A stretch of 63,704 nt of DNA from Gelidibacter maritimus (GTDB lineage Bacteria; Bacteroidota; Bacteroidia; Flavobacteriales; Flavobacteriaceae): contig NZ_JACGLT010000022.1 in assembly GCF_014062315.1 (NCBI RefSeq), positions 1 to 63,704 of the forward strand. The letters are read 5' to 3'. Both the position numbers and the translations under genes were made by a program. How positions within the stretch are numbered: the first letter of the stretch is position 1; each line of letters begins with the position of its first letter. Shown here piece by piece: positions 25,596-61,962 of this stretch. Below the pieces are notes generated by a model. The model saw only the letters and a program-made list of their open reading frames with translations. It did not search any database and was not told the origin of the DNA.

Positions 25596-25663
25596 TATTT
25601 TTCAACAGCGTGACCCTTACGCTATAAGAACCTTTGTTTTTAGTATTAAATAGTCCAATATTC

Positions 25664-27817
25664 ATGAGAATTGCAAGTGAATTTATAGCATCCTTTAAAA
25701 CTATTCTTATAATCTGTTCAGTTTTTGTTTTCACTATCAGCAATCTTCAGGCTCAGGAATACAATTTCCAGCAATTAAGAGCCCGTGTTGCTAATAGTCA
25801 AAGCACAAACATTGCAGAAGTAGCAGTTATGGATGATTGGATTTCCAATCAGAATTTTGATGGAAGTTGGCCAGATATGACCTATGGAAACATTGCGTTA
25901 ACAGATGCCTTAAACAATAATCACATCCACCGTTTATGGCATTTAGCCGCGGCTTGTACAAGGCTTGATCATATAAAATATAACGATTCAGGCTATAAGA
26001 ATGCCGTTAAAAATGGCTTACAATTTTGGTATGATTCTAAAAGTAACGATGCCAATTGGTGGTTTAATAAAATTTATTTTCCGCAGCGATTGGGTGAGAT
26101 TTTAATTTTTATGCGCGCTTTTGATGGGGTTATACCGCAAAATAGCTCAGTAGGAATTGATGAGCCAGAAATTTTATCATTATTTAACCCCACTGAAATA
26201 AAAGATATAACTTCCCATAGTACAGGTGCCAATGCCATTGACATTGCGTTACATTATGTGTACCGTGGCTTGCTTACTGAAAATGGACAGCTTTTAGAAG
26301 TTACGAGAAATAAATTAGAAACGCTTTTAACTGATAACATTAAAGCAGACATGGTCTATCAAGATCATGGACCACAAATAATGATTGCTAGTTACGGACC
26401 TGTATTTAGTGAAGGTTTGTTGCGTTTGGCATCTTATTTGGCAGATTCTCCAGCTGCTTTCGATACCAAAAGTGAGAGTTTTTCAAAAGTTATTCGTTTT
26501 ATTCGCGATACTCAAATTTCATCGATCCGAGGCCGCTCATGGGACTTTAATATTTTAGGTAGGGGGGTTAGCCGTTACAATGCTCTGAAAGCTAGTCTGG
26601 GTTATCTTCATATTTTAGCAGAGACGATTGATCCAGAAAATGCTACATCCTATTTAGACGCACTAGGGAGGTTGAACGGCACATATCCTCCAGATTATAA
26701 TGTGCGCACGTTTAATAAGCAGTATTGGGTTTCTGATTATATGCAACACGCTCGTAGTGGCTATTTGTTCACTATTCGAAATACTTCAACACGAACTGCG
26801 GAGAGTGAAACCGGAAATGGCGAAAATTTAAAAGCCAATTACTTTTCTTATGGTGCTAATTTTATGGCTATTGATGGTAATGAGTACACTAATATTATGC
26901 CTGTTTGGGATTGGGCTATGATTCCAGGGGCCACGTTTCCTTATATAGAGACATTCCCAAAACGACGCACTTGGGGTTCTAATTTTGGGAATACAACCTT
27001 TGTAGGTGGTGTTTCAAATGGGACTTATGGTGCTTCGGTCTTAAGTTTAGATGAAGCTAATATATCGGCTAAGAAAAGTTGGTTTTTATTTGATGATGAA
27101 ATGGTCTGCTTGGGTGCTGGTATTGTAGATCATAGTAATACAGAAGTGCGGACAACGATTAATCAGGCGTGGATGCAGCATCCTTCGTATTACAATGAAA
27201 GAGGTAAAGCCACTGAAAAACTGGCAGATATAAGCTCAGATGTCTATCTTAATTCCGATTTGAAATACATTCGTAATGGCAAATTTGGATACTATTTTCC
27301 TAATGAAACAAAAGTTAAGTTTACCATGCAGTCAAAAAGTGGCACGTGGCTCGACATTAATAAGATTGAAGATTCAACAAAAACTGAAGCGGGAAATGTC
27401 TTTTCTCTATGGGTAGATCATGGAAAAAATCCCGATAATGCCTCCTATAGTTATATCGTGGTTCCAAATATAGATTCCAATAAAAAAGCACAAGCATATG
27501 ATATGAATGCTTTGGACATCATTGAAAACACAACTACAATCCAGGCGGTTTACCATAAGGCTTTGAACCTATTGCAAGCGATATTTTATCAGGCCGGAAC
27601 CGTTGAATTTCAAGGAATGAGCGTGTCGGTTGATAGACCGTGCGCCTTGCTACTTGATCGAGGAACGAGCGTAACCGTTTCAAATCCTTCGCAAACCTAT
27701 TCTAATGTTTTGGTGCGCATTAAAAAGAAGGGCAAAACATACGCTCAGGTTGTAGAATTGCCTACAGGAGGGCATAAGGAAGGCGCTTCGGTGACCGTCA
27801 ATTTTAAAATACCTTAA
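25664..27817 (+). CDS. Polysaccharide lyase family 8 (PL8-2), paralogue of PL8-1
   Basis: A 717-residue lyase closely resembling PL8-1 over its whole catalytic part (for example SYLADSPAAFDT, GENLKANYFSYGANFMAIDG and PVWDWAMIPG are shared). I start it at the ATG that gives a typical signal peptide ending LQAQ; an in-frame TTG 30 bp upstream is less likely. Active-site residues by analogy are N190, H235, Y244, R300 and R304. Unlike PL8-1 it ends right after the beta-sandwich (VTVNFKIP) and has no T9SS domain, so it probably stays in the periplasm and works on imported oligosaccharides. It follows a strong terminator and begins a three-gene group with GH88 and GH2. Confidence 0.92.
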   Translation: MRIASEFIASFKTILIICSVFVFTISNLQAQEYNFQQLRARVANSQSTNIAEVAVMDDWISNQNFDGSWPDMTYGNIALTDALNNNHIHRLWHLAAACTRLDHIKYNDSGYKNAVKNGLQFWYDSKSNDANWWFNKIYFPQRLGEILIFMRAFDGVIPQNSSVGIDEPEILSLFNPTEIKDITSHSTGANAIDIALHYVYRGLLTENGQLLEVTRNKLETLLTDNIKADMVYQDHGPQIMIASYGPVFSEGLLRLASYLADSPAAFDTKSESFSKVIRFIRDTQISSIRGRSWDFNILGRGVSRYNALKASLGYLHILAETIDPENATSYLDALGRLNGTYPPDYNVRTFNKQYWVSDYMQHARSGYLFTIRNTSTRTAESETGNGENLKANYFSYGANFMAIDGNEYTNIMPVWDWAMIPGATFPYIETFPKRRTWGSNFGNTTFVGGVSNGTYGASVLSLDEANISAKKSWFLFDDEMVCLGAGIVDHSNTEVRTTINQAWMQHPSYYNERGKATEKLADISSDVYLNSDLKYIRNGKFGYYFPNETKVKFTMQSKSGTWLDINKIEDSTKTEAGNVFSLWVDHGKNPDNASYSYIVVPNIDSNKKAQAYDMNALDIIENTTTIQAVYHKALNLLQAIFYQAGTVEFQGMSVSVDRPCALLLDRGTSVTVSNPSQTYSNVLVRIKKKGKTYAQVVELPTGGHKEGASVTVNFKIP

Positions 27818-32371: not shown

Positions 32372-35300
32372 CTATTTTACAACAAACTTTGCGGTTGCTA
32401 TTTGATTGGTTGTTCTTTCAAACACTTTCAAAAAGTACAATCCAGATGACAATTCTGCCGTATTGATTACTGTCCCTTTTGCTTTTTGGTGACAGGTTCC
32501 TAAAATATCGTAAACTTCAAAAACAACATCATCCGAAAATCTTGACATCTTGAAGTTTAGATGATTTCCTGAATTCACAGGGTTTGGATAGACGAATACC
32601 GAGAATTCTGATGGGCTGGCATTAACTGGAAGATCTTCCAATCCGAGAGTGGTATTATCCAAATTCCCTACATTGAACTCCGAGACTTGAATAGTGTTTC
32701 CTGAGTTAACATCCCATCCGGTAATTACTAATTTGATATAACGGTAGCTCACCTCAGGAAATGACACTTTAACCTCAGGAACATCAGTTGCAATTGCCAC
32801 ATCTTCAATGATTGGATCAAATGGTCCATCTTCTGAATCACTACCATAGAAAGACACTGAGGAGGCTCTTAAAATGCTAAGGCTATTGTCCGTTCGGTGT
32901 CTATAGACAAAGAAACTAATATCTTGCTCAGTTTGCATATCGATGGTAAAGGATGGCTCATAATCCGGATCAGTTGTAATTCCTCCAAAAGTCCTTCCTG
33001 GCTTTACAAACAAAAAGGCGGTTTGCGTATTGTCATCTATGATATACTCTGGTTCTGTACCTCCCACAACGGCGTCTGAAGGTCCTTCTATCGAGGTTTT
33101 GATGATCCAGCCTGACTTATCCAACAAACTTTCTTTGCCTGGGTAAAGCGGCGAGTCTTGATTAATATTAAATCTTAGGGACTGCCCTAAATGAGGGCTG
33201 GAAGCGCTATAAGTGATTAACTTGGCCTCATCTACTGAAGGGGTTACGACCCCCAAGTTAATTGGAATTGTCCCATTTTTTGGATCTGCAACATGGATTA
33301 TTGTTTCAGCTTGATCAATATCTTTGACCAGCACGACACAACCAGCATCTGCCTCTATTGCAAAACCATTATTTGTAAACTTCGCTGGTTTGTGAAAAAC
33401 CAACCCATAACTTTTTTGTGCTTTATGGTAAACTGCCTGTAAAGAATCGGAATTCACCAAGATTTCAATATCTGAAATCGAATAAGTATCTGCTTCCGCC
33501 TCTGAAACTCCTGGAACTATCACGTAAGCGTAGGTGTCTTCCGTGGGGTCAACACCATGGTCAAAGGCTAATGTGAAAACGTCTTTAACAACCATAGGCT
33601 CATCTGCATAATTGGTATTTATACTTGACCATTCACCAGTTTTTTGCTGCGCCGTTAGATTGACGTTGCCATGCTCTGGAAAATAATAGGCTACTTTATC
33701 GTGATATACCCAATCTAAGTTGCTGTAATCATAATGGCCTGAGGTCATGGAAGATTTTGTACCACCGGAAGACACGGTGATGTTCCCTTCAAGAAGGTTT
33801 TGATTGACGGTCGTATTTACTTTTAGACCTGAAGTGGATTGAATGCTGTTTCCTAAACAAACAATTTCATTGTCAAAAAAGAACCATGCTTTATTGGCTG
33901 AAGTATTGATTCCACTATAAGTGTCGATATGTTGATAGGCAGAAATGGTATTTGAATTATCGGTTACTCCACCAACAAAATCTGACTGGCCTTGTTGAAT
34001 ATAACTTGATGCTTGGGGAATAGAAGTGTATTCTGGAGAAGTAACGCCAGGGATTTTAGACCAGTCCCATACAGGGAAGATATTATAATACTCATCGCCA
34101 TCAACAAAAATTCCAGTAGCACCATCGGACAAAAAGTACTGTTTGATGCCCTCTCCATTATCGCTTAGATATTCGTTGCGAACTGTTCTATTGGAAACCA
34201 TGCGTAAATCTACTGTATAGGCTGGTTTGTTGTGTAATGTATAATCGGAATGATAAAAATGAGCGCTCGAAGGGGTTATGCCATAGCTTGGATCTTCGGC
34301 TCCTGTTAATCGAGAAATTACATTATCGTAAATTGACGCATTTGCAGGATCAAGACTTTTCATTCGTTCAAAGATACTTGTATCTCCCGTCTTTTTTGTG
34401 GCATTAGGTCGGGTAGAGGCCCGTCCTAAAGGGTTGAAAAGCATATATTCACCTCTAAATATAGTTGCATAGGAATCCTTTACTAAATTACTTAGAATTT
34501 GCAATCTATCAGATGGAATGGCATATTCTGTGTCTACAGCATACATACTTGCCTTGGTAATTCCTGTTAGAAAAACGTTTCCATAGGAACCAGTATATAA
34601 CTGGCGTCCGTGTTGTGTGTATGAATTATCATATTGTATCCCTTCACTTCCTGTTGTTAGCTCAATAGGAGAATAGATATAGGTCATTGCTTCGTTCAGT
34701 AAATAGGAATCTTTGGTAAGACAAGCTCTATACATATGGTGCAATGCCACATCAATGCGGTTGGCACCAGTTTGAGACGAAGGGCTTCCTCCATTATTGC
34801 TTAAGCGTGCAATAGCTGTGTTCAATAAGGCTTCCGGGATGCTTTCATTCCCTAAATAATCCATTAGGATAAGATACTGCCCCATTAGTTTTGGTTCTCC
34901 AATTTGGTTATAATACCAATTGTTTGAGCTTGGTTGCTCGGTTTGCCAAAATTGAAGCATGGTGTCCATCGTTGCTTTTAGGAAAGTATCTCTATAGTAG
35001 GTGCTTTCTTCATCAGTGTAGGCCAGCCCCATATCCATTAATCGGTCTAAATGTACTAGTGGAGGCCAGTCTGTTCGGGCGGTTGACGAATAATCGACAT
35101 CAGGGAATGCGCCATCTGATTGCAATTGAACCAAGTAAGAAGCAACATCTGCATCTCTTTGACTAACATCTTTTGATTTCTCTTGTATGAGGTCAGCAAC
35201 AATACGTTCTTTAAACACGTCAAATACCAACTTATCCAAAACCGTTACTTGACAAGTTGCTGTAATCGATGGGTCATTTAAGGCCATAGCCGTAACAGTC

Positions 35301-36862
35301 ACGGTACCTAGGGTAAGACCTTTAATTTTATTATCTGAAGTAATTTCTACGATAGACCCATCACTAGATTTCAACGTAAATTCCTTATTGGCTACAAAGA
35401 TTGGAGAGAAGTTAACTTTTAAAGTTTCAATATCATCTATCACAAGATTGTACTCCTCATTTTCGAAGGCTATTGCCGTTGGAGTTACTGCATTGCCTAT
35501 TGCCAATATTTTGGTGTCAAAATCTACGGGACTTGAGTATTCGCCCTGCATCCATACGATATCTAAAGGAGCATTTTCAGGCAGGTTTTCTATTCGTTTT
35601 GGACGTATGTTCACTTGGTTGGAATCTGTTCCTGAAGTTAAAGCTTCTGCTTCTTGCCAAGTACTTCCTGAATCTGAAGTGGTATATTTGTAGATTTCGA
35701 AAACACCTTGCTCACTTCTTTTAGACAAATAAACAGTTGATAAGTCGTTTGCAGCAAAGTTAAGACCCCCTGAAGAAAACGAATTTGAAGGAAACCGCGA
35801 TTGGTTTGCAGAATAGGCTGCAGTATGCAGACCATCACCTGCATCTGCTATTTGTGAGGTGACCCATTGATTGCTGCTACTGTCCCATCGGGCCTGGTTG
35901 TAAACATGTTCTGTGCCATCAGCATTAAAAGTGTCAAATAATACTACAGGTTGATCGTTACCATCTAATTGAATATCGTAAGCCCATGCTTTTTTACCAC
36001 TTTCTTCTTCATTGAAGATTACATCTGGTGGACTTCCTGCATCAATACTTGACTTGACTATGGTTGTCCCATCTGCTTTAAATAAATCAAAACTTAACCC
36101 TGTGGCAGGTGTTGAAGTTGTTACCAATTTCATATAATGTATCGAACTTTGGTCATAAGCGTAAAAATTACCTGACTCACCACCATTGGCTAGTTGGGTG
36201 AAGACAATATGTATGGCGCCATCACTATCTTGAACAGCCTTCATGTACGGGATATCTAATTTTACCTCATAATCATTGCCATTTTGTATAGGAAATAACC
36301 CTGCACGCCTATTGCCACTCGCTAAATCTGCATTTACAGTTTGGTCTGTTGCCGAATTTAACCCTGCTCCATAAGTTATGCCAACACTATTTTTTCCGCG
36401 ATATAGCACATAAATATCGTCTCCCACTGCAAATGGAAGAGTTCCACCGGCACCATACGCTATAGCTGTTTTTGGATTGGACCACTGTGAAATATCTTCA
36501 GGACTGGTAGTAACCCAAATAAAATAATGGGCCTCTCCTTCATTTCTGGAAGCAAACAATAGTATTTGGCCGTTCTCCCTCACTAACAACGCCGGCGAGG
36601 CAAAATCACCTCTATAGCTGGAAGCAACGACGGTCTCTTGATAATCACCAGTAGAATGGTTATACGACGCTGCCACTAAGGATTTATTACTGTTTACCCA
36701 TGAAAAATAAGACTTCCCGTTATGGTAAACGGCACTTGGCTGCGAATTCACAGACCAAGCACCGTCTTCAGTTAAAGGAACTGTAATCTTTTCCTGAGCA
36801 CTTAAAATGTTGTTTCCTAAAAGGAAAACAACAAGTAATGCAAAGAGTAATTTGTTTTTCAT
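32372..36862 (-). CDS. Multidomain PL8 lyase (PL8-3) with beta-propeller, Ig-like, discoidin-like and T9SS domains
   Basis: A 1496-residue secreted enzyme, roughly twice the usual PL8 length. In order: signal peptide (ends LSAQ), a BNR_4-like beta-propeller (about 25-460; AVYHNGKSYFSWV, PALLVRENGQIL), a bacterial Ig-like group 2 domain (about 465-545), the PL8 toroid and beta-sandwich (about 550-1225), a discoidin-like module (about 1250-1400) and a T9SS sorting domain (about 1410-1496). Active-site residues N701 (TGANR), H751 (QHGRQ), Y760, R814 and R818 are spaced exactly as in chondroitin AC lyase. It is more distant from PL8-1 and PL8-2 than these are from each other. The propeller may be a second catalytic unit or a binding domain; the discoidin-like module recurs in the nearby surface lipoprotein. 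Confidence 0.9.
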   Translation of the reverse strand: MKNKLLFALLVVFLLGNNILSAQEKITVPLTEDGAWSVNSQPSAVYHNGKSYFSWVNSNKSLVAASYNHSTGDYQETVVASSYRGDFASPALLVRENGQILLFASRNEGEAHYFIWVTTSPEDISQWSNPKTAIAYGAGGTLPFAVGDDIYVLYRGKNSVGITYGAGLNSATDQTVNADLASGNRRAGLFPIQNGNDYEVKLDIPYMKAVQDSDGAIHIVFTQLANGGESGNFYAYDQSSIHYMKLVTTSTPATGLSFDLFKADGTTIVKSSIDAGSPPDVIFNEEESGKKAWAYDIQLDGNDQPVVLFDTFNADGTEHVYNQARWDSSSNQWVTSQIADAGDGLHTAAYSANQSRFPSNSFSSGGLNFAANDLSTVYLSKRSEQGVFEIYKYTTSDSGSTWQEAEALTSGTDSNQVNIRPKRIENLPENAPLDIVWMQGEYSSPVDFDTKILAIGNAVTPTAIAFENEEYNLVIDDIETLKVNFSPIFVANKEFTLKSSDGSIVEITSDNKIKGLTLGTVTVTAMALNDPSITATCQVTVLDKLVFDVFKERIVADLIQEKSKDVSQRDADVASYLVQLQSDGAFPDVDYSSTARTDWPPLVHLDRLMDMGLAYTDEESTYYRDTFLKATMDTMLQFWQTEQPSSNNWYYNQIGEPKLMGQYLILMDYLGNESIPEALLNTAIARLSNNGGSPSSQTGANRIDVALHHMYRACLTKDSYLLNEAMTYIYSPIELTTGSEGIQYDNSYTQHGRQLYTGSYGNVFLTGITKASMYAVDTEYAIPSDRLQILSNLVKDSYATIFRGEYMLFNPLGRASTRPNATKKTGDTSIFERMKSLDPANASIYDNVISRLTGAEDPSYGITPSSAHFYHSDYTLHNKPAYTVDLRMVSNRTVRNEYLSDNGEGIKQYFLSDGATGIFVDGDEYYNIFPVWDWSKIPGVTSPEYTSIPQASSYIQQGQSDFVGGVTDNSNTISAYQHIDTYSGINTSANKAWFFFDNEIVCLGNSIQSTSGLKVNTTVNQNLLEGNITVSSGGTKSSMTSGHYDYSNLDWVYHDKVAYYFPEHGNVNLTAQQKTGEWSSINTNYADEPMVVKDVFTLAFDHGVDPTEDTYAYVIVPGVSEAEADTYSISDIEILVNSDSLQAVYHKAQKSYGLVFHKPAKFTNNGFAIEADAGCVVLVKDIDQAETIIHVADPKNGTIPINLGVVTPSVDEAKLITYSASSPHLGQSLRFNINQDSPLYPGKESLLDKSGWIIKTSIEGPSDAVVGGTEPEYIIDDNTQTAFLFVKPGRTFGGITTDPDYEPSFTIDMQTEQDISFFVYRHRTDNSLSILRASSVSFYGSDSEDGPFDPIIEDVAIATDVPEVKVSFPEVSYRYIKLVITGWDVNSGNTIQVSEFNVGNLDNTTLGLEDLPVNASPSEFSVFVYPNPVNSGNHLNFKMSRFSDDVVFEVYDILGTCHQKAKGTVINTAELSSGLYFLKVFERTTNQIATAKFVVK

Positions 36863-37373: not shown

Positions 37374-38630
37374 TTAATATTTCACATGGTAGTCTTTCGC
37401 AAACGCGGCGCCATTCCATGCCTTTTGAGAAGTCCATTCTTCCGCAGGACCATTCCAAAAAGGATTATCGGCAGGGAGACCTAATGGTAAAAAACTTAAG
37501 GATGCCATATATAAACTTCCGGTGGACGTATAATAATCTGCTATTTCCGGAGTGTGTCCCGTAAATCCAAGCTTTAACCAGCCATTTTCATCAAACGCCT
37601 CGTCGCCAAGCATGTTTTCAGTGACTTTTGTGAGGGCACATCGCACTTGTGCAGGACTGACACCTTCTGGCAGGATCTCTTCCAATGCTACTTGTGCCAA
37701 CGCTTGCATTGCACCGGTCCGATAGGTTATTGATCGTCCTATTACGGGAAATGTACCCACTGGCGAGATCATTCGTTCCAATTGATCGGCGTAGCGTAAC
37801 ATGCGTTTTAGAGCGCGATCGTAGTCAGCTTGCGGTTTTATGTTATGTCTGACCAAGATTTCCAAAGTGTCCACTAACATCGGGTGAATTACAAACGAGT
37901 TGTAATAATCAAGCGCAAAGGTTGGCCCGTCACTGTACCATCCATCACCCACGTACCATTCGTCAAATTTGTCGAGTGCTTTATCCACTGCTTTCTTATC
38001 CCAATCTTTTTCACCTATTGAGAGCAAAAAAGATTCTGTTAACGCGGTGAAAAGTAACCAATTGCTATCGAATGCTTTTCGCGTTCTCAATGCTTTAAGT
38101 TCTGTAATCACTCGTGTTTTAGTTTGCGCATCGAGTGGCTCCCATAATGCTTTTCTTGCTCTAACAAAACCATGGACCATATAAGCGGCATCCACAATGG
38201 GTTGATGCTCTTTTCTGAAATTCAGATAATCTGGACTTGATGGGTTGACTCCGTTAGCTATTCCTTTGAGTACATTGCTTCTTAGGGAGGCTCTTAGTCT
38301 TCCTTCCTCAGAAGAGTCATCCGGGAGAGCAAGCCATGGTGCTATTCCCGCCAAACATCTGCCAACGGCTTCCAAATAGGTCACGTTCTTTCGGCTGTCG
38401 TAAAAAGGCGATTTTTCCACTAACATATTTTTCTTTAAGGTTCCTTTTGCAAGGTTTGAAAAAATGGGATTAGCCATTTTATAAATAATGTTTACCCATA
38501 GCTCCCTATCATTTCCATTGGCCGGTGGTGGAGGGGTCAAAATATTATTATCAGCCACCATTTCAAAGGGTGTGATGGCGGAAAGCATCACCGCTCCAGA
38601 AACTGACCCTAAAAATTTTCTTCGTTCCAT
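37374..38630 (-). CDS. DUF2264-family protein with Tat-like signal
   Basis: A 418-residue exported protein whose N-terminus MERRKFLGS is followed by a hydrophobic stretch, a Tat-type signal. The rest is an alpha-helical domain of the DUF2264 family, expected to form an (alpha/alpha)6 barrel (for example WLALPDDSSEEG near residue 95, WYVGDGWYSDGPTFALDYYNS, split here as DGWYSDGPTFALDYYNS near 240). From memory, members of this family have been assigned to a beta-glucuronidase glycoside hydrolase family (GH154), which would suit a uronic-acid PUL; I am not certain of the number. It has its own terminator and a hairpin upstream, so it may be a separate transcript. Confidence 0.75.
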   Translation of the reverse strand: MERRKFLGSVSGAVMLSAITPFEMVADNNILTPPPPANGNDRELWVNIIYKMANPIFSNLAKGTLKKNMLVEKSPFYDSRKNVTYLEAVGRCLAGIAPWLALPDDSSEEGRLRASLRSNVLKGIANGVNPSSPDYLNFRKEHQPIVDAAYMVHGFVRARKALWEPLDAQTKTRVITELKALRTRKAFDSNWLLFTALTESFLLSIGEKDWDKKAVDKALDKFDEWYVGDGWYSDGPTFALDYYNSFVIHPMLVDTLEILVRHNIKPQADYDRALKRMLRYADQLERMISPVGTFPVIGRSITYRTGAMQALAQVALEEILPEGVSPAQVRCALTKVTENMLGDEAFDENGWLKLGFTGHTPEIADYYTSTGSLYMASLSFLPLGLPADNPFWNGPAEEWTSQKAWNGAAFAKDYHVKY

Positions 38631-38841: not shown

Positions 38842-40026
38842 TTAGAGTTCTTCATAATTGAGTTTGATAATATTGAAATCTGATATCTGAACCGTATTGC
38901 CTGTGGTATGCCACTTGTCGTAAGTTAACTTAAAATAGCGATAACTAACCGTTTTAGGCAAATCAACGATGACTTCATTTTCTTCAACGTCAATAGTCAA
39001 ACCTTCGGCCACCGGTTCAAAGTCTACACCATTGTTGCTTCCGTACACACTAGCTTCAGCTAATCTTAAAAAAGCTGATGCATTTCTGAGGCGATGACGT
39101 AAGTAAAAGGCATCAAAATCTTCTTCCTTTTTCATATCAATAATAAAATGCACTTCCTCATCGTTTCCAACGGTTATTCCTCCTAATGACTTTCCTGGTT
39201 TTACCAAAACCAAACAGGTAGGTTCTCCCTCCATAGTGCCGTAAGCGTCTGGATCATCGATTAAACTTTCTGGAGTCCCAACGACAGTACCATCAGCGAA
39301 ATATGGGTGAGAGGTTGTGACTTCCCAACCATCACGATCTAAATTTTGATAGGTTGTGTTTCTGACTTTAATTTTTATGGTTTTTTCTATATTGCTACCA
39401 TCATCTGATTTAATGGTAATGTTTACATCTCCAAGACCTACAGTGCTAACAACCCCTCTACGGGTTATAGTTGCAACTGAAGTATCATCTGATGCAAAGA
39501 TTAAATCCTTGTTGGTAGCGAACTCTGGGTTAATGCTAATGATTTCTGATAAATCAAAGGATTTATCGATACCCATATAAAAATCCTGATATGCTGGATC
39601 TATATCTAAAGACTCAATCAAAAACAATTTACTATTCACTTTAATTGTTATGGAGGTCCATAAATCGGTATTGTTCACTGGATCTATCCTTAATGCAGCT
39701 TCACCAACCCCAATGGCGGTAATAACACCGTCTTCGCTTACTTTAAAGACCTCTTCATTTGCGCTAAAGTACTCATAACTGTACGTGTCTTTATCCACAG
39801 CGTCATCTGGCAATAACTTCACATTGACCTTGTATGTATCAGCGACTTCCAAAACGACAATGTCATCAGTTACGCCCTCCACTTCCATACGTGTTACTTT
39901 GATAGCGTTTTCGATTACATCGTCATCAGAGTTACACGAAACAGTCATTAGGGTAAGGGACAGCAATACTGTCCAGACAAACCCAATGCTTTTCATTAAT
40001 CTCATATTCTTATAGTTTATTTTCAT
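38842..40026 (-). CDS. Surface lipoprotein with Ig-like domains and a discoidin-like C-terminal module
   Basis: A 394-residue lipoprotein (LMTVSC, cysteine at about residue 31) placed like a surface glycan-binding protein at the end of the SusCD-3 operon. Residues 40-130 and 140-225 look like Ig-like group 2 repeats (VSEDGVITAIGVGEA, TITRRGVVSTVGLGD). Residues 230-390 form a discoidin-like module that is clearly homologous to the module near the C-terminus of PL8-3: both have LVKPGKSLGGIT or FVKPGRTFGGIT, FIIDM or FTIDM, YRHR or LRHR, SYRYFKL or SYRYIKL, and NTVQISDFN or NTIQVSEFN. No catalytic motif is seen. Probably a glycan-binding protein for the same ligand as PL8-3. Confidence 0.8.
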   Translation of the reverse strand: MKINYKNMRLMKSIGFVWTVLLSLTLMTVSCNSDDDVIENAIKVTRMEVEGVTDDIVVLEVADTYKVNVKLLPDDAVDKDTYSYEYFSANEEVFKVSEDGVITAIGVGEAALRIDPVNNTDLWTSITIKVNSKLFLIESLDIDPAYQDFYMGIDKSFDLSEIISINPEFATNKDLIFASDDTSVATITRRGVVSTVGLGDVNITIKSDDGSNIEKTIKIKVRNTTYQNLDRDGWEVTTSHPYFADGTVVGTPESLIDDPDAYGTMEGEPTCLVLVKPGKSLGGITVGNDEEVHFIIDMKKEEDFDAFYLRHRLRNASAFLRLAEASVYGSNNGVDFEPVAEGLTIDVEENEVIVDLPKTVSYRYFKLTYDKWHTTGNTVQISDFNIIKLNYEEL

Positions 40027-40046: not shown

Positions 40047-42350
40047 TTACTTATATTGATTGATATTGTCATCCTGAATATCTTCCACATTGTCATGCGG
40101 CATTGCATAGCCTTCCGCATTGATTTCAGTAATTAGAACATCAATTTGTTCTTGTGTGATTTTAAACTGCTTATTACCGTAATCGTTTATGGTTTTATCT
40201 ACAGGCGTAAGGAAGCCCCACTTCTGGAAAAAGTCAATCATATTTAATCCTGAGATTTTACAAACCTGACGTACAAAATCTAACTGCAACAATCCTTCGG
40301 TATTGCTGCTGGTATTTAAATTAGGGGTGATTCGATAGTGCTCATAAAGATCTTTATAGAAGTCTTCTTTCCCTAAGGCGTCAATCATATATAGTTTCAG
40401 TTGCCAAAAAGGCACGAGTTTTACCATAAATTCATTTGAGGCATTATCTAATGCATGAGGTGCTCCAGCGTCGATAATATTAGCCTTAGCCTCGGCGTAG
40501 GTCCCATCAACAAGTAATTTAGATGGTTCTCCGAATTCGGTCTGTACATACATAGACATGATGTTATTGGTGACTTCAGTTGTTCCAGCCCATTTTAAGG
40601 CTGGCCTAAGTTGATTGACATGACCAACTTCATGAGCAGGACCCCATAGACGGGCTTCAAAACGATCAGCATTACAAAATATCTCTGCATAACTGGAGGT
40701 ATATGCAGTTCGGTTATTTGTGGCATATGGACTTGCGCCGTTATAATCTATGTGGAAATACATTCTGTTCTTAAACATTTTGCCATATTTTTCCAATCCT
40801 GCAAATTCAGATTCCAAATAGACTAAACGATCGTATTTTTCTAAAACACTTACAATATCCGTGTTGTATGATCGGAAGTTTTCGGTTGTCCAGGTGATAT
40901 GAGAACGCAAGCCTAGCACATCTATATCTTGGTATGGTGCATTATTCAGAATTGTTGACCAGTCTTCACTAGTGTGTTTGGCTAAATCAAAATAGCCGTT
41001 AACTTTAGCGTTGACAAAATGAATATCTACTGATTTCGCTGCAGCGGCAGTCTTATCTGCTTCGGATTCCAAAATGAGTGGAATATTGTCTGTGGTAAGG
41101 TTTTGGACATAAACGAGTCCTCCAGTATCGATATTCAACCGATTGACGCCTTCTATAAGTGGGTAATTTTTAGAACTGCCAAAACCGATGTTTAGGTCTT
41201 GAACAACCAATGATATATTTTGTTTGTAAGGGCCACCTACAATCACCACTAATTCATCGCCTTCTTCTACATAAATTCCTGATGGATTATCTCTTAAACT
41301 ATATGTTGAGGTTTTGTTAATTGCGCTTTGAATCGATGGGTTTTGATACGGACGGAATGATGCTACTCTATATTCAGGATCGTACTCTTCAACAAATAAA
41401 TCTAATGCTAAATTGCGTAACTCATCATCTGGAATGGCTTTCAATTGAGCTTCGGTGACGCCATCCTTCAAAACTGAGAAGACATCGTCTTCAAAAATGG
41501 ACGAATAATCATAGCCTGTGTTGCCATCTTGATAAAACTCCATTTCTGCACAACTGATTCTATTTTGATACGCAGAATAAATATCGAAACGCACTTTGGC
41601 AACATTCGCGATTGGAGTCTCCAATTTCATTATGGTTGGGTTATGGTTACCATCCCCGCGTTCGTATTTACCCACTTTTGAAAAGCTATCAGGAGCGTCT
41701 GCGGTTGAGACCCAAACCTCGTATTCGTTAAATGATCCCCATTTGTTTCCTGAATCCGATCTTGGATAGTAGATAATTCTATTTAAAGTATGTCCTTCAG
41801 CCAGGGTGTATTCTATTTGGAATGGCCACTCGGTAATTGCACCAAATTTTGAATTGAAATAGGTTTCGTAATCACCGTCATATGAGTTTACAAGACCACG
41901 ATCCTCGTTTACTGTTTCTTCAGAGGTTGCTGTGCCACTTATGACATCAATTAGTTGATCACCTACAGCGGCTTCTTGGCTAACTGGCACTTTTCTACTG
42001 TAATCTCCATAGTTTATGGTTACAATAGTGCTTCGTGGGGACTCATAATAGTTGGGCATGGTAGTTACATGTAAATAGTTCCCTTCTAAATCAAGTGTAC
42101 ACCAATCCTTTCCATTATCAGAGACCTGGTAGATAACATCCTGTGGATTGATATCGTTTGTGAGTACTAAATACACATCTTTAGTTCCACCGCTAGTATT
42201 AAAATCTAGTTCTAGAGGCAAGACCTTTAACCATCCTTCATTTTCGGAGTCTATGACATTATCTTTATCACATGATTGAGCTCCAACGACAAGAATCATA
42301 AGTAAGGCATAAATCCAGACTTTACTTTTATAAAATTGTTTCGTTATCAT
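40047..42350 (-). CDS. M60-like metallopeptidase lipoprotein with BACON and discoidin domains
   Basis: A 767-residue surface lipoprotein (GAQSC, cysteine near 27). Domain order: BACON-type beta-sandwich (about 37-115), F5/8-type discoidin (about 120-275) and an M60/enhancin-like peptidase (about 330-700). The zinc site is HEVGH with H573, E574 and H577, followed by VNQ and the distal E592, fitting HExxHx(8,28)E of the family. Known M60-like enzymes cut heavily glycosylated proteins such as mucins. It lies 20 bp upstream of the lipoprotein gene and 26 bp after SusD-3, clearly one operon. The context suggests attack on the core protein of a proteoglycan or glycoprotein; the actual target is unknown. 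Confidence 0.88.
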   Translation of the reverse strand: MITKQFYKSKVWIYALLMILVVGAQSCDKDNVIDSENEGWLKVLPLELDFNTSGGTKDVYLVLTNDINPQDVIYQVSDNGKDWCTLDLEGNYLHVTTMPNYYESPRSTIVTINYGDYSRKVPVSQEAAVGDQLIDVISGTATSEETVNEDRGLVNSYDGDYETYFNSKFGAITEWPFQIEYTLAEGHTLNRIIYYPRSDSGNKWGSFNEYEVWVSTADAPDSFSKVGKYERGDGNHNPTIMKLETPIANVAKVRFDIYSAYQNRISCAEMEFYQDGNTGYDYSSIFEDDVFSVLKDGVTEAQLKAIPDDELRNLALDLFVEEYDPEYRVASFRPYQNPSIQSAINKTSTYSLRDNPSGIYVEEGDELVVIVGGPYKQNISLVVQDLNIGFGSSKNYPLIEGVNRLNIDTGGLVYVQNLTTDNIPLILESEADKTAAAAKSVDIHFVNAKVNGYFDLAKHTSEDWSTILNNAPYQDIDVLGLRSHITWTTENFRSYNTDIVSVLEKYDRLVYLESEFAGLEKYGKMFKNRMYFHIDYNGASPYATNNRTAYTSSYAEIFCNADRFEARLWGPAHEVGHVNQLRPALKWAGTTEVTNNIMSMYVQTEFGEPSKLLVDGTYAEAKANIIDAGAPHALDNASNEFMVKLVPFWQLKLYMIDALGKEDFYKDLYEHYRITPNLNTSSNTEGLLQLDFVRQVCKISGLNMIDFFQKWGFLTPVDKTINDYGNKQFKITQEQIDVLITEINAEGYAMPHDNVEDIQDDNINQYK

Positions 42351-42376: not shown

Positions 42377-44254
42377 TTAATTGGCATGATCAATAGGTTC
42401 AATATTACTTTCAGAACCAGCATATCCTTCATTCTGATTGATATGACCTTGAACGTTTACACTTATGGCAGACTCAGAGATCGGCCATAGTACATGCCAT
42501 GGAGCAAGAGTATATTCATTTCCTATTTGATTGGTGACACCTAGATTATAAAAGTTTGTCACCGATGAAATATGATCAAAAAAGAAATTATTTTCAGAAA
42601 AATTGGCTAAGGAATAACTTTTGCCATTATCGGCTGCGATTCCTGTTTTTGCGTAGATATAGGAAATTCGTGTGAGCTCTGTTTTTCTTGGTTCTTCATA
42701 GAACAATTCACGAGCACGCTCATCAATCAATTGGCGCATATTTATTTCTGCAGTAGTCAATGTTCTGGCACCCGCTCTTTCTCTTACCGCATTGATGTCA
42801 GTCATGGCGTTGGATAAATCACCTTTCCAGATATGAGCTTCTGCCCGGAGCAAATAAGTTTCTGCTAAACGGAAAATGTACCAAGCAGCGCTACCACCTC
42901 TCCAGTTGGCAGTTTTTTGATCCGGAACATTTGATTTATAGTTCGGCCAACCTCCCCAGCCTCGAATGGTATCCTTACAAATTGCACTCACGTCACCACC
43001 TACCGATGCCAACGCTTCTTTAATTGGTCTTCCAAACCATTCGCTTTTACCTTCTAAATTTGGACTGTTATAATTGAACTCCTCAACGTGCATCCAATTC
43101 TTAGATTCACGATCGTGACGTAAATCGGTATTGTCCAATTTCCAGATTAAATCTTGTTGGTAACTGGTGGAGCGCAAGGTGAAAATACCTCGTCCGTACT
43201 CAGCCAAATATGGATTTTTAACTTCATCGTTATCCACAAATGCATTTTCTCCATTTGGAGTAGATATCATCCCTGGATAAGAATACCATGGAATGACCTG
43301 ACGTTTGATTTCCAATCCTGTAGGCGTTGCAGATTCATCCTCATATTCGTCGGTCACAACATATAATGCTTCCCTGTTTTCTGAAGATGTTTTATTTTTA
43401 TTTTGATGTAGGTCCCAGGTCACGTTTTTTGTGGGGTCATCAGAACCAACGGCATTACCAAAACGTTGTGTCATCAGCGAATGTGATCCTCCGTCAATTA
43501 CAGCAGAGGCTGATGCGATAGCATCATCAAATTCGGCAAGTGCCAGATTGATTTTAGTAAGTAAATGATAGGCTGCCCCTTGAGTAACCATTCCTATGTG
43601 GACGTTTTTTGGCATAAATTCTACGGTCTGGTCGAGATCTTCTTTCATTTGTCTTAAAATCACTTCTCTTTTTGTAGTATAGAAGTCGTAACGCGGGCCG
43701 GTAACTTCTTCTGCAATAAATGGAACATCACCAAACTGGTTTACTAGTCTATAATATCGGTAGGCACGATGAAAGTAGGCCAATGCCAAAACTTCTTTCA
43801 TTTGATTTTCGTTATCAAATTCTGCAAATTCAGAACGGGAAATTATAGTATTTGCATCCTTAATGCCTTTATACAGTGCTTGCCAATAAAAATGGACTCG
43901 TGCTCTATTACCGCCACTTAGGTTTGCGCTTGGCGTAATTTGACGCACCAAATCCTGAGGAGCACTTGCATCATCTACACGACCGTTTACACCGATGTCT
44001 GAAAAGAAGGCTTCGGTTAAATAGGCAGGATCTTGTGAAAATCCTGTTGGATAAAACTCTAAATAACGCACGTCACGATTCAACATATCCGTTCCGGTCT
44101 TTAATCCTTGATAATCTTGAAATGCATTTTCTGGCGTGTAAAAGGATAAGGGTTTTGGATCTAACCAATCATCGCTACAGCCTACAGTCATCATTAGAGC
44201 TGTAAACAAAACGAAATATCCTGCGATTTTATTTATATTTTTCATAATCTTCAT
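42377..44254 (-). CDS. SusD/RagB-family surface lipoprotein (pair 3)
   Basis: A 625-residue SusD-like protein, longer than pairs 1 and 2. The lipobox is MTVGC (cysteine about residue 26). Landmarks are EVLALAYFHRAYRYYRLVNQ around residue 152, RLAETYLLRAEAHIW around 465, and ARELFYEEPRKTELTR around 515. It lacks the usual EQNPGW ending and instead closes with an NQNEGY-type segment. It follows SusC-3 after only 3 bp, so expression is coupled. Binds glycan on the cell surface and gates the transporter; ligand unknown but presumably that of the M60/PL8-3 group. Confidence 0.94.
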   Translation of the reverse strand: MKIMKNINKIAGYFVLFTALMMTVGCSDDWLDPKPLSFYTPENAFQDYQGLKTGTDMLNRDVRYLEFYPTGFSQDPAYLTEAFFSDIGVNGRVDDASAPQDLVRQITPSANLSGGNRARVHFYWQALYKGIKDANTIISRSEFAEFDNENQMKEVLALAYFHRAYRYYRLVNQFGDVPFIAEEVTGPRYDFYTTKREVILRQMKEDLDQTVEFMPKNVHIGMVTQGAAYHLLTKINLALAEFDDAIASASAVIDGGSHSLMTQRFGNAVGSDDPTKNVTWDLHQNKNKTSSENREALYVVTDEYEDESATPTGLEIKRQVIPWYSYPGMISTPNGENAFVDNDEVKNPYLAEYGRGIFTLRSTSYQQDLIWKLDNTDLRHDRESKNWMHVEEFNYNSPNLEGKSEWFGRPIKEALASVGGDVSAICKDTIRGWGGWPNYKSNVPDQKTANWRGGSAAWYIFRLAETYLLRAEAHIWKGDLSNAMTDINAVRERAGARTLTTAEINMRQLIDERARELFYEEPRKTELTRISYIYAKTGIAADNGKSYSLANFSENNFFFDHISSVTNFYNLGVTNQIGNEYTLAPWHVLWPISESAISVNVQGHINQNEGYAGSESNIEPIDHAN

Positions 44255-44257
44255 TTT

Positions 44258-47200
44258 TTAAAAGGTTACATTAAATCCTAATAATATACTGATGGGCACG
44301 TTACTGCCGGAAAGCTCAGGATCTTCTCCTGGCCAGTTGCTCCAATAGGCGATATTTTTACCGGTTAGGTTTAAATTCATATCTGAAATTTTTAATTGCT
44401 TCAAAAGTGAATCAGGGAGTGTGTACCCGATAGATACATTATCCAAGCGAATGAAATCCGCCTTCCTCCAAACCGAATAGCCTATGCCGCTAGGTGCCTT
44501 AGAACTTAATCTTGCATAATCATTGGTAGGGTTATCCTCACTCCAATATTCCGTTATAATTTGGTTGGTGGTGTTTATCAATGCACCATCATTTTTAGCA
44601 CGGTTGAAAGCTTTTTTCTGACCTAAATAAGAGTATAGGTTGAAGGAAAAATTGAAATTTTTATAGGTAAAGGTATTTCGCATGCTCAATCGAGTGGTAG
44701 GCACTTTCGATCCCTGAAAAACCTTGTCTTCGTTATTATATTTTTGGTTGCCATCTTTGTCCAAGAATTTAAAATCTCCAGGTGATTGACCATAGACCGC
44801 AGCTTCATCTTTTTCGTCCGTTTGCCATACGCCCTGAATATTATAATCCCAAATCTCATCAATGGACTTTCCTATAAACCATCCGTTGCCGATGTCGTCT
44901 GCTTCTTTTTGCCCGATGACATTTCCATTGTCATCTAAAACATCCTGCATTAAACCATGTAATGAATTAATTTTGTTTTTGTTATACGAATACCCTAAAA
45001 AAGTTTCCCATTTAAAATTATCGTTTCTTATGTTGGTTGAATTTATGGAAAGTTCTATTCCCTTATTTTCTACCTCACCAATATTACCCCATACATTTGA
45101 AAAACCTATGATGTCCGGTAAGTCACGTTGGATAAGCAAATCGTTGGTTTTCTTTTGGTAGACATCCACGCTCCCTGTGATCCTATTATTTATAAAACCA
45201 AAATCGAATCCAATATTATATGATTCTGTGCTTTCCCATTTTAAGTTGGAGTTTGCCATTCTATAGGCATAATAAGCATTGATGCTGATTGGTTCGCCAG
45301 AAGCATCATAGTATAAATATTTCCGAGCGTCAAGGTTCATTAAAGCTTGATACATTCCAATGTCTCTGTTACCATTTAACCCCCAAGACAATCTGAGTTT
45401 TCCATAGTTGAACGCATCAGATTTTGGGAAAAAGGATTCGTTTGTAAATACCCAACCTGCCGCAATGGAAGGAAAGGTCGCTCGAGGTTGCTCCTGACCA
45501 AAAGCTGAATACCCATCACGACGAACTGTTCCTGTCAGCATATATCGGTCGTCATAACTGTAATGTAAACGCGCCATAAGTGCGTCACCTGTACTGTACG
45601 TATCGTTACTTGAAATTTTTGGATTGGTTCCCCATTCAATACCGTGTGCACCTAATATATCACTCGGTTGAAAGCCGCTATTGGTCATGGAATCTGACCA
45701 TGTTTGTAACTTCTCCAAGTTAGCTAAGAATGTGAAATCGAAATCATGCTTTCCAAACTCTCTTTTCCATTTCAAAGTGTTGTCCAACTGCCAGTTATAA
45801 GTTCTGGAATTCGATCGTGATGCTGTATTTGTGGCATCTGCCCAAAGTGGGTGTGACGTCGAATTATGGTTTAAATAATTGCGCCATTGGTAGCGTGGTG
45901 AGAATGTAGACTGGACAGAAAAACCATGCGGTAAACTAATTTTTAAATATAGTGCGGAGTTTAAAATGCTGTAATTATCCATTCTATCGATATACTCCCG
46001 ATTCAAAAATGGATTATAACCATTTAAATTGTCATTGGGATAATATTTATAGGTTTCCCCGTCGTTTTCGTACAGACTTCCGTAAGGGGAAAGAGGTTGA
46101 TACCCGCCAACACTTATGGCACTTTCATCGCGGTTAGTAAATTGGGTGTTGACCCCAAATGTTAAAAAGTCAGTAACCTTGGACTCTAAGTTTAATCGAG
46201 CGCGAACTGCAGAATATCCAGATCCTACTTGATTGGCTTCGTTGTCAATATAGTTAAACGACGTATAATAGGAGGTGTTCTCCGTTCTGCCAGATAGGCT
46301 CAAAGAATAATCCTTGCTAATGGCTGTGCGATAGGTCATATCTTTCCAATTGAGCACTCGGCCCGCCATATAGTTTTCTCTCTCAATGTCTGAAAATCCT
46401 AATCTTGTAAACCACACACCGGTAGGGTCTCCACTTGAGTTTGTCATCGCCATCCAATCCACCAGATCCCTGTTTGGTAAGTTCTTAGGATTGTCATAAT
46501 AGCCTTTCTGTCTGCCTTTGTTCTGTGCTTTCATTACTTCTTGTCTGTAAGCAATAAACTCCTCACCTTGATAAACATCTGGTAAGGAATTGGTAAACGC
46601 AGAGGTCAATATTGAAGAAAATCGAATGACCGGTTTTCCAGCTTTTCCTTTTTTGGTGGTGATCAGGATGACACCATTCGCGGCCTTGGCACCATAAACA
46701 GCAGCCGAACTGGCATCTTTTAAAACATCAACACGCTCAATATCCTGTGGGTTGATGTCTGTAAGCTCTCCGTCATAGATAACGCCATCCAAAACAAATA
46801 ATGGGGTAGTACTGCCACGTAAATTATTTTTACCACGGATAAGAATATTCCCTGCATTGCCTTTCGCGCTATTGGATATTCCCATGGATAATCCAGGAAC
46901 ATTGGTTCGCAATAGGTCCTGTACTGTTGCAGGTTGTTCTTTTTTAAGTTGGTCGGCATTAACGGTGCCCAATGCACCCGTTAAATCTCTTTTCTTCATC
47001 GTTCCATAACCCACAACGACCACTTCATCAAGCTGGGCAAAATCTTCCTGGAGCGTTACCGTAATAAAATCTTGATTTGCCACCGTAATTTCAGAGGATT
47101 GGTAACCCATAAAGGAGAATACAAGAACTTCACCTTCTTTTGCATTGATACTAAAGTTTCCATCGAAATCGGTGATCACACCTCGCGTTGTATTCTTGAC

Positions 47201-47365
47201 AAGAACGTTGGCACCTAAGATGGGTAAGCGATTTTGATCTAAGACTTCTCCTTTTATTTCTTGGGCGTTAACCCATGAAACTGAAAGGAAACAAAAAGCT
47301 AACACGGGTAAGATTCTTATAAGTGGTGTTTTTACGAATAAGAATGGTTTCAAAAAATGTTTCAT
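44258..47365 (-). CDS. SusC-like TonB-dependent transporter (pair 3)
   Basis: A 1035-residue outer-membrane importer with a signal peptide ending VNAQ, a carboxypeptidase-like domain (about 36-110; IKGEVLDQNRLPILGANV), a canonical TonB box LDEVVVVGYGTMKK (about 113-126), plug (LIRGKNNL, PLFVLDGVI, VDVLKDASSAAVYG) and barrel. It begins the minus-strand operon SusC-3, SusD-3, M60, lipoprotein. The upstream region carries a 12-bp direct repeat 35 bp apart that might bind HTCS-2. The protein is complete. Confidence 0.95.
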   Translation of the reverse strand: MKHFLKPFLFVKTPLIRILPVLAFCFLSVSWVNAQEIKGEVLDQNRLPILGANVLVKNTTRGVITDFDGNFSINAKEGEVLVFSFMGYQSSEITVANQDFITVTLQEDFAQLDEVVVVGYGTMKKRDLTGALGTVNADQLKKEQPATVQDLLRTNVPGLSMGISNSAKGNAGNILIRGKNNLRGSTTPLFVLDGVIYDGELTDINPQDIERVDVLKDASSAAVYGAKAANGVILITTKKGKAGKPVIRFSSILTSAFTNSLPDVYQGEEFIAYRQEVMKAQNKGRQKGYYDNPKNLPNRDLVDWMAMTNSSGDPTGVWFTRLGFSDIERENYMAGRVLNWKDMTYRTAISKDYSLSLSGRTENTSYYTSFNYIDNEANQVGSGYSAVRARLNLESKVTDFLTFGVNTQFTNRDESAISVGGYQPLSPYGSLYENDGETYKYYPNDNLNGYNPFLNREYIDRMDNYSILNSALYLKISLPHGFSVQSTFSPRYQWRNYLNHNSTSHPLWADATNTASRSNSRTYNWQLDNTLKWKREFGKHDFDFTFLANLEKLQTWSDSMTNSGFQPSDILGAHGIEWGTNPKISSNDTYSTGDALMARLHYSYDDRYMLTGTVRRDGYSAFGQEQPRATFPSIAAGWVFTNESFFPKSDAFNYGKLRLSWGLNGNRDIGMYQALMNLDARKYLYYDASGEPISINAYYAYRMANSNLKWESTESYNIGFDFGFINNRITGSVDVYQKKTNDLLIQRDLPDIIGFSNVWGNIGEVENKGIELSINSTNIRNDNFKWETFLGYSYNKNKINSLHGLMQDVLDDNGNVIGQKEADDIGNGWFIGKSIDEIWDYNIQGVWQTDEKDEAAVYGQSPGDFKFLDKDGNQKYNNEDKVFQGSKVPTTRLSMRNTFTYKNFNFSFNLYSYLGQKKAFNRAKNDGALINTTNQIITEYWSEDNPTNDYARLSSKAPSGIGYSVWRKADFIRLDNVSIGYTLPDSLLKQLKISDMNLNLTGKNIAYWSNWPGEDPELSGSNVPISILLGFNVTF

Positions 47366-47567: not shown

Positions 47568-48746
47568 TTACAGTTTGTAAATTTCACTTCCGGCCAACAA
47601 AAAAGCACCCACTCCATAAGGGGCAGTCATGTCTGCGGTCACTTTTTTGGGATCAGCTCCAATAGGTTGCACCCAACCTAACTTTCCATCTTCATCTACA
47701 ATAGATAATAATGACTCCCAAGCTTTGTTTGCCATCGAGCAATAGATGTCCTTGTTTATTAAGTTGTTGTTAATACCATAAGCAATCGCATAGGTTATTA
47801 ATGCCGTTGCACTGGTTTCTGGTGCAGGATAGCTTTCAGGATCCAGGAGGCTAGCATGCCAAAAACCAGATTCACTCTGTAGCGATGCAAGTCTTGGAAT
47901 AAACTCCTTAAACAAGTTTTCATAAAAAGACCGGTATTGTGAGTCTTTTGGCAATTGCTTTAAAATGCTTACCAATCCAGCTGCCACCCAACCGTTTCCT
48001 CTTCCCCAGAACACTTTTTTTCCATTGTTTTCGGTTTTATTGAAATAGCTATCATCCCTGAAAAACAACTTATCATCGGGACTATATAAGTGGTTGTATG
48101 TGCGTTTAAATTCCGCATCCATAAAAGCCAGATACTTTTCATCATTCTCTATCTCGGCTAAATGCGCATACACAGGAGGTGCCATAAAAAGCGCATCGCA
48201 CCAGGTCCAAGATTGTTTGTTTCTATAATTCATGTTCGAGTTCCCTGGATTGCTCAGAACCCAATCCGCGCGTTCACGGACCGATGCAAGCATTTTTGGA
48301 TCGCCGTAGAGGTCATAGGTATTTAAATACAACTGGCCAATACAGAACTCATCTGCATGATAAAGTTGATAGTGTGCATTGTTTTTAAAATTACTTGGCA
48401 TTATCCAAGAGGTTGTTTCACCAATTCCCTTAAGCCATTTTAAAAAGGTTGGCTTGTTATTATCAATTTTGGCCCACTCGTTTAAACCCACATAAAACGT
48501 TGCATTGGTCCAAGAGTCAATACCGTGGTCATGTAGGTTTCCAGTTGTACCATAGGAGAAATTATCAATCTGCCAATTGGCAACTTTGTTTAATTCTTCT
48601 TTTACATCCGTCTTACTTACACAAGGTCTTTTTATCTCTTGCTCATCACTTTCCTTGCTGTCTTCCTTTTTATCATTACAGCCAAAATAGAGCGTAGAAG
48701 AAAGAAGAAATGCAACATACAATATCAAGTAGTTATATTTTTTCAT
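47568..48746 (-). CDS. GH105 unsaturated uronyl hydrolase, lipoprotein
   Basis: A 392-residue hydrolase that removes 4,5-unsaturated uronate from lyase products, related to but distinct from GH88. The lipoprotein cysteine is C23 (LYFGC). Family landmarks are YHADEFCIGQ (129-138; the HADD-like motif), the catalytic D184 in WTWCDALFMAPPVY and FWGRGNGWVAAG near residue 244. Known GH105 enzymes prefer unsaturated sugars linked to rhamnose or other neutral sugars, so it widens the range of fragments beyond GH88. It is upstream of SusC-3 with a 202-bp gap, hence probably its own promoter, and is divergent from HTCS-2. Confidence 0.92.
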   Translation of the reverse strand: MKKYNYLILYVAFLLSSTLYFGCNDKKEDSKESDEQEIKRPCVSKTDVKEELNKVANWQIDNFSYGTTGNLHDHGIDSWTNATFYVGLNEWAKIDNNKPTFLKWLKGIGETTSWIMPSNFKNNAHYQLYHADEFCIGQLYLNTYDLYGDPKMLASVRERADWVLSNPGNSNMNYRNKQSWTWCDALFMAPPVYAHLAEIENDEKYLAFMDAEFKRTYNHLYSPDDKLFFRDDSYFNKTENNGKKVFWGRGNGWVAAGLVSILKQLPKDSQYRSFYENLFKEFIPRLASLQSESGFWHASLLDPESYPAPETSATALITYAIAYGINNNLINKDIYCSMANKAWESLLSIVDEDGKLGWVQPIGADPKKVTADMTAPYGVGAFLLAGSEIYKL

Positions 48747-54902: not shown

Positions 54903-54904
54903 TT

Positions 54905-61936: not shown

Positions 61937-61962
61937 TATAATTTATTTTATGGTTTAAATAA

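Follow-up and report, generated by a model that had tools for sequence, protein, structure and literature searches.

The 63,704-base window analyzed here, which is the entire contig C15 (NZ_JACGLT010000022.1) of the 4.7 Mb genome of Gelidibacter maritimus, encodes a lyase of polysaccharide lyase family 8, PL8-3, that carries an additional β-propeller at its N-terminus. The open reading frame (ORF) is intact (32372..36862, minus strand, 1496 aa, ATG start). The somewhat favored interpretation is that this BNR_4 propeller is related to the lyases of families PL24, PL25 and PL42, has lost catalysis, and now serves as a putative carbohydrate-binding module. The propeller-PL8 fusion itself is a real, conserved and rare architecture.

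The extent of the fusion was first proposed in a sequence-only reading of the window, which described about 435 extra N-terminal residues resembling BNR_4 propellers, followed by an Ig-like domain and an intact PL8 domain. Pfam supports each part. BNR_4 (PF15892) is matched at aa 51-340 with 48.1 bits against a gathering cut-off of 27.3 (E 1.3e-12), and a Big_2 domain with a score of 22.8 bits, exactly equal to its Pfam cut-off, lies between propeller and PL8 at aa 464-527. The same reading made no mention of the C-terminal part of the protein, where Pfam places an F5_F8_type_C domain (aa 1269-1387) and a Por_Secre_tail (aa 1424-1494). Given this type IX secretion system (T9SS) tail, PL8-3 is probably a secreted lyase destined for the cell surface. 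The propeller is the sole BNR_4 match of the genome at E <= 0.001.

The PL8 module is predicted to be intact. Pfam assigns Lyase_8_N (PF08124, aa 575-839, E 2.5e-59), Lyase_8 (PF02278, aa 868-1120, E 3.2e-73) and Lyase_8_C (PF02884, aa 1133-1196, E 5.7e-13), such that the alpha/alpha N-domain, the super-sandwich and the C-terminal sandwich domains of the family are all present. The module resembles PL8 chondroitinase AC (1CB8/1HM2) over its full length (E 3e-138), and in the alignment with 1HM2, with positions counted by hand, chondroitinase AC residues Asn175, His225, Tyr234, Arg288 and Arg292 are all five identical in PL8-3; these we take to be the active-site Asn, His and Tyr and the Arg pair for the substrate. 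Part of this assignment of roles comes from PMC8733870. The 700-residue 1HM2 chain, in contrast, is too short to hold a propeller. The NCBIfam model for chondroitinase AC matches aa 546-1198 with 567.5 bits, under its cut-off of 1000. Therefore, the substrate of PL8-3 need not be chondroitin, and the enzyme is near to chondroitinase AC but not assuredly one.

The fold of the propeller was modeled with AlphaFold2 from residues 24-460 and a 13-row alignment, giving a mean predicted local distance difference test score (pLDDT) of 73.5 and a predicted template modeling score of 0.82. When the model was compared to the Protein Data Bank (PDB) with Foldseek, the PL25 ulvan lyase (5uam/5uas) took ranks 1-4, with E-values of 2-4e-15 and template modeling scores of 0.66-0.69. 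GH145/PL42 entries came after PL25 (E 2e-11 to 4e-10), with a putative Bacteroides neuraminidase placed alongside them, then the PL24 enzyme LOR107 (E about 1e-9) and later the PLL lectins (E 1e-9 and up). The root-mean-square deviations are high, at 5.7-6.9 for PL25 and GH145/PL42 and mostly larger for the rest, so the fold class is clear and the details are not. The model thus points to the ulvan-lyase-like fold that had been proposed, probably with seven blades, as judged from the matches and not from a count of blades in the model. By sequence, the single propeller matched 5UAM weakly (E 0.069), a family profile run against the PDB failed to reach PL25 and gave weak matches to sialidases as its best, and an intact propeller relative used as the query found no PL25 match.

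The loss of catalysis is predicted from an alignment of the propeller with 27 related propellers and the full-length PL8 fusions (n=3). Left out before the relatives were counted were L022_13291, a weak match (E 1.3e-4), the partial L043 from G. japonicus, and L062 and L076, which are copies of the fusions from Aestuariibaculum marinum and G. pelagius. The sequence-only reading had remembered a motif DDHxxP that reads GDFASP in PL8-3 (residues 85-90), and had suggested that the propeller may have lost catalysis and become a binding domain. The motif was correctly remembered, given that all 27 relatives have Asp-His at this position, followed by Pro in 24, where the fusions have Asp-Phe. The loss is also wider than was noticed. 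The His, Tyr and Arg columns kept in 27/27 relatives read Phe, Gly and Arg in 3/3 full-length fusions, and the weak pairwise alignment with 5UAM agrees in setting Phe87 against His123, Gly139 against Tyr188, and Arg155 against Arg204 (chain positions plus 24, counted by hand). Three further substitutions are shared by all three fusions: Asn107 replaces a second His (present in 26/27 relatives), Ala225 the His in a GHP-type motif (27/27), and Ser363 another Tyr (27/27). The fusion propellers also carry insertions after Arg155 and near residues 232-256.

Mutants of related enzymes indicate what such changes would do. According to PMC13193363, changing either the His or the Tyr of a PL25 enzyme to Ala inactivates it. 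For the PL42 enzyme FoRham1, PMC8377490 gives no or barely detectable activity for H85A/F and Y150A, and about 1% retained activity for Y150F, with no primary role assigned by its authors to Tyr150. FoRham1 was compared to PL8-3 by motif and spacing, unaligned; on that comparison, just the Arg of its His85, His105, Tyr150 and Arg166 would be kept. The propeller of PL8-3 is therefore predicted to have lost acid/base catalysis. A fusion of two lyases, as had been entertained, is rejected for the known mechanism, because all three full-length fusions lack the His and the Tyr. From its spacing, Tyr206 may correspond to Tyr202 of FoRham1 and bind the carboxylate together with the Arg.

Among known propeller systems, the PL25 enzyme PLSV_3936 (5UAM/5UAS) is a seven-bladed propeller and the best solved match, with its Arg204 aligned to Arg155, but it has the His and Tyr that PL8-3 lacks, shares only about 14% identity, and is a 473-residue chain (5UAM) with no PL8. 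FoRham1, an L-Rha-alpha-1,4-GlcA lyase, and the former GH145 protein BT3686 share the BNR_4 (PF15892) propeller with PL8-3, but FoRham1 has the residues listed above. The PLL/PHL propeller lectins of Photorhabdus are like the propeller of PL8-3 in fold and have been solved with bound sugars, but belong to another sequence family; they are seven-bladed, non-catalytic and stand-alone.

The fusion is found in four species, being present in 3/9 Gelidibacter genomes and in A. marinum. It is full-length in G. pelagius (G399), with 92% identity to PL8-3 over all 1496 residues, and in A. marinum (G697 of the family sample), where the propeller is 69% identical. The fusion of G. japonicus is partial, its propeller being broken by a run of N close to the beginning of the scaffold, and the genus-sample entry G397 was matched from residue 313 on. 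An assembly chimera can be ruled out because the fusion recurs in other assemblies. Propeller relatives occur in 12/395 phylum genomes and 15/397 family genomes, with the genome studied here counted in each. When the ORFs of these relatives were inspected and compared, and ten of the longer ones also scanned with Pfam, a PL8 followed the propeller only in the G. maritimus genome and in A. marinum. PL8 itself is found at 22 places in 11/395 phylum genomes, and one of these, in the window, coincides with a propeller match; this comparison is by place, and not all of the other ORFs were scanned with Pfam. In a class search of 395 genomes, which scored two candidates per genome, five proteins among the matches listed were scanned with Pfam (one BNR_4 protein and four long PL8s), and none of these five joins BNR_4 to PL8.

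The profile search could have refuted the BNR_4 link and did not, and in these samples the fusion was not seen to be common among PL8 enzymes. Nor was any description of a BNR_4-PL8 protein found in the open-access literature, as judged by titles and the starts of abstracts among the matches listed, in keeping with the earlier suggestion that the fusion is undescribed. In PMC9210967, a cluster that overlaps BNR_4 is among adhesin candidates of ambiguous function, with adhesion suggested. A hypothetical BNR_4 protein of two domains is mentioned in PMC13193363, whose main text does not contain the term PL8.

Selection on the propeller was estimated from the window and G. pelagius by the Nei-Gojobori method, with bootstrap 95% intervals, as the ratio of nonsynonymous (dN) to synonymous (dS) substitution rates. 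The ratio is 0.124 (0.080-0.198) for the propeller, 0.172 (0.090-0.348) for PL8_N and 0.141 (0.083-0.216) for the rest of PL8, with dS along the gene ranging from 0.14 to 0.69. Against A. marinum, dS is saturated and no ratio was taken; the propeller dN of 0.223 is no higher in this comparison than that of PL8 (0.284, 0.239). Because the propeller ratio is as low as that of PL8, the propeller is under constraint rather than decaying, and a mere passenger domain is disfavored. The fusion propellers sit on a long stem branch of 2.86 changes per site, which is what a change of function would be expected to leave; their placement among the other propellers of the tree lacks support (40/37).

The neighborhoods of non-fusion propellers suggest that the two modules share a substrate. 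In 22 genomes (11 from the phylum sample and 11 more from the family sample), the surroundings were inspected over at most 20 kb, in some cases only as far as a contig end; G1037 and G1098, propeller matches from the class search, stand outside both this count and the 27 relatives. PL8 directly adjoins a BNR_4 gene in 3/22 genomes. The distance to a BNR_4-GH88 gene is 80 bases in G107 and 15 bases in G417, and in G162 a different BNR_4 protein lies 12 bases from PL8, with two propeller-match genes about 8 kb on. No PL8 was seen in the stretches inspected from the remaining 19 genomes. Some clustering is expected, given that both BNR_4 and PL8 occur in polysaccharide loci, but finding the two genes side by side in three genomes supports a substrate in common. 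PL8 is found in only 10/394 other phylum genomes. The BNR_4-GH88 gene of G566 adjoins homologues of the DUF4861, KduD-like, KduI, GH88-like and regulator genes of the window.

Other BNR_4 fusions were encountered among these relatives. BNR_4-GH88 fusions in L021, L022, L023, L063, L069 and L128 would probably pair a lyase with the hydrolase that removes its unsaturated product, and L024:10113-13400, which joins Pec_lyase to a propeller whose catalytic columns are intact, is a candidate for a genuine two-lyase protein. Like PL8-3, these Bacteroidota proteins have an N-terminal BNR_4 joined to an enzyme for uronic-acid polymers or their products, but their propellers keep His, Tyr and Arg and look active, and in place of PL8 they are joined to GH88 or to a pectic acid lyase. 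The G162 locus (L109:5163-12657) includes a gene for a Hepar_II_III protein, a 626-aa ORF, PL8 and, twelve bases on, the BNR_4 gene, which has a DSHN motif. Ten viral contigs from IMG/VR (L077-L086) also encode BNR_4-type propellers. Nine were placed in alignment A3 (L086, a near-copy of L085, was omitted) and six of the ten in A4; the nine aligned in A3 keep Asp-His. Several lie in long frames (1130 aa in L077, 914 aa in L082) that look by eye like phage structural proteins, so that phage-borne propeller lyases are possible.

A role of the propeller in glycan binding is suggested by the selection on it, by the retained Arg, and by the gene context. The propeller would descend from an active lyase, and its pocket would still clamp the carboxylate of a uronate via Arg155, perhaps with Tyr206, and no longer cleave the chain. 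It might then anchor PL8 on a uronic-acid polymer, either the one that PL8 cuts or another that occurs with it, and the products of PL8 would pass to the SusCD, GH88 and Kdu/KDPG-type genes of the locus. A bolder form, in which the propeller founds a new carbohydrate-binding family from a lyase, with the acid/base pair lost and the Arg155 (perhaps Tyr206) clamp kept, and, as a lectin for uronates, passes the chain on to PL8, is offered tentatively and is the less probable of the two.

Several observations weigh against a lyase turned binding module. Of 28 conserved polar columns, only 12 survive throughout the three fusions, so that binding of the ancestral type may be lost too. The loops of the propeller model are poor, residues 148-179 and 203-213 of the model having pLDDT < 50, and an 1176-residue model (pLDDT 51.3) was not used. 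Among the three adjacent gene pairs, the BNR_4 protein next to PL8 in G162 is a different one, outside the alignment of catalytic columns, and in the G417 propeller Tyr replaces the second His. The PL8 tree, from which L110 (a duplicate of L063) and L123 (a short match) were omitted, does not group the PL8 of the fusion with those that adjoin BNR_4 genes, and G351, which holds its closest relatives in that tree, had no propeller match in the phylum search. An origin of the fusion by joining of such a neighboring pair is therefore not claimed.

The loss of most conserved polar columns, together with strong purifying selection, might instead mean that the propeller binds protein, as a docking or cell-surface module with SusCD3, M60 or the Big_2/F5F8 protein as its partner, and SusD, M60 and Big_2/F5F8 genes also adjoin the fusion in A. 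marinum. This is unlikely, however, as PL8-3 already has a Big_2 domain, an F5/8 C domain and a T9SS tail, the proteins closest in fold have sugars as substrates or ligands, and the carboxylate-neutralizing Arg is kept. The long stem branch and the two insertions would also suit a second, remodeled enzyme, with new catalytic residues on the anterior face or with its active site on the posterior face, the arrangement proposed for GH145 BT3686. PMC8377490 indicates that an active site is possible on the other face of this fold, and also describes loss or shift of function among GH145 members. With the His and Tyr of the known mechanism gone, such an enzyme seems distinctly improbable. The loss of catalytic residues is what would be expected of a non-functional relic of an earlier two-enzyme fusion, but dN/dS is as low as in the PL8 module and three species have an uninterrupted reading frame, making a relic very hard to credit. 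Conversion to a putative carbohydrate-binding module remains the favored account.

PL8-3 is the last gene of a same-strand run, SusC3-SusD3-M60-(Big_2+F5/8)-DUF2264-PL8-3, and its features and neighbors are collected below.

Features of PL8-3 and of the neighboring genes in the window
Feature	Position	Strand	Basis or remark
PL8-3: propeller, Big_2, PL8, F5/8 C and T9SS tail	32372..36862	-	Pfam, NCBIfam
Probable signal peptide, aa 1-23	36794..36862	-	Hydrophobic N-terminus, judged by eye
BNR_4-type β-propeller, aa 24-460, predicted catalytically dead	35483..36793	-	Pfam, model, Foldseek, family alignment
Phe87, at PL25 catalytic His123	36602..36604	-	Family alignment, 5UAM pairwise alignment
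Gly139/Gly140, at PL25 catalytic Tyr188	36443..36448	-	139 by 5UAM alignment, 140 by family alignment
Arg155, at PL25 charge-neutralizing Arg204, kept	36398..36400	-	Family alignment, 5UAM pairwise alignment
Big_2 Ig-like linker domain, aa 464-527	35282..35473	-	Pfam
PL8 catalytic module, aa 575-1196	33275..35140	-	Pfam, 1HM2 alignment
F5/8-type C (discoidin-like) domain, aa 1269-1387	32702..33058	-	Pfam
Type IX secretion C-terminal sorting domain, aa 1424-1494	32381..32593	-	Pfam, NCBIfam
DUF2264 protein, same-strand neighbor	37374..38630	-	A. marinum has GH2 gene in its place
Big_2 + F5/8 C protein	38842..40026	-	C-terminal part matches aa 1247-1414 of PL8-3 at 42% identity
Peptidase M60 with BACON and F5/8 C domains	40047..42350	-	Pfam
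SusD3 (42377-44254) and SusC3 (44258-47365), same operon-like run	42377..47365	-	
GH88 unsaturated uronyl hydrolase-like protein	47568..48746	-	

The window further holds two other PL8 genes, two more SusCD pairs, GH2, two hybrid two-component regulators, KduI, a PfkB kinase, a KDPG-type aldolase and a short-chain dehydrogenase/reductase read as KduD-like; GH88 has one clear match and one below cut-off. From this content, the window is predicted to be a locus for degradation of a uronic-acid polymer. No sulfatase was found on this contig, and the eight above-cut-off matches of the genome are all on other contigs, suggesting a non-sulfated or lightly sulfated polymer. Three of the eight are on contig C5, around a fourth PL8, and the window locus probably serves a polymer different from, and less sulfated than, that of C5. 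The fourth PL8 (G000:C5:103925-113794) is of another subgroup, and with its three flanking sulfatases may mark a sulfated-chondroitin-type locus.

Other observations concern the rest of the window. PL8-1 (11435-13843) and PL8-2 (25634-27817), both on the plus strand, are 66% identical to each other and distant from PL8-3, and are probably a local duplication. Downstream of SusD2, a 632-aa protein (23624-25522, plus strand) in which Pfam sees only a T9SS tail is possibly a glycan-binding protein or an enzyme. Beside the locus are a GMC oxidoreductase and a gluconate 2-dehydrogenase subunit 3-like protein (53169-55462, plus strand), and at the contig end an IS21-like istA/istB pair (61199-63516, minus strand) suggests that the contig may break at an insertion sequence.

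One way in which carbohydrate-binding families may originate is for a catalytic module to become a binding module, and to our knowledge clear intermediates between lyase and binding module are few. Here, relatives with intact catalytic residues, relatives with PL8 neighbors, and a predicted dead copy fused to PL8 coexist, such that the step from lyase to lectin is directly testable. The BNR_4 label alone does not imply ulvan lyase activity, and PL8-3 may be viewed as a PL8 lyase with a possible new targeting domain.

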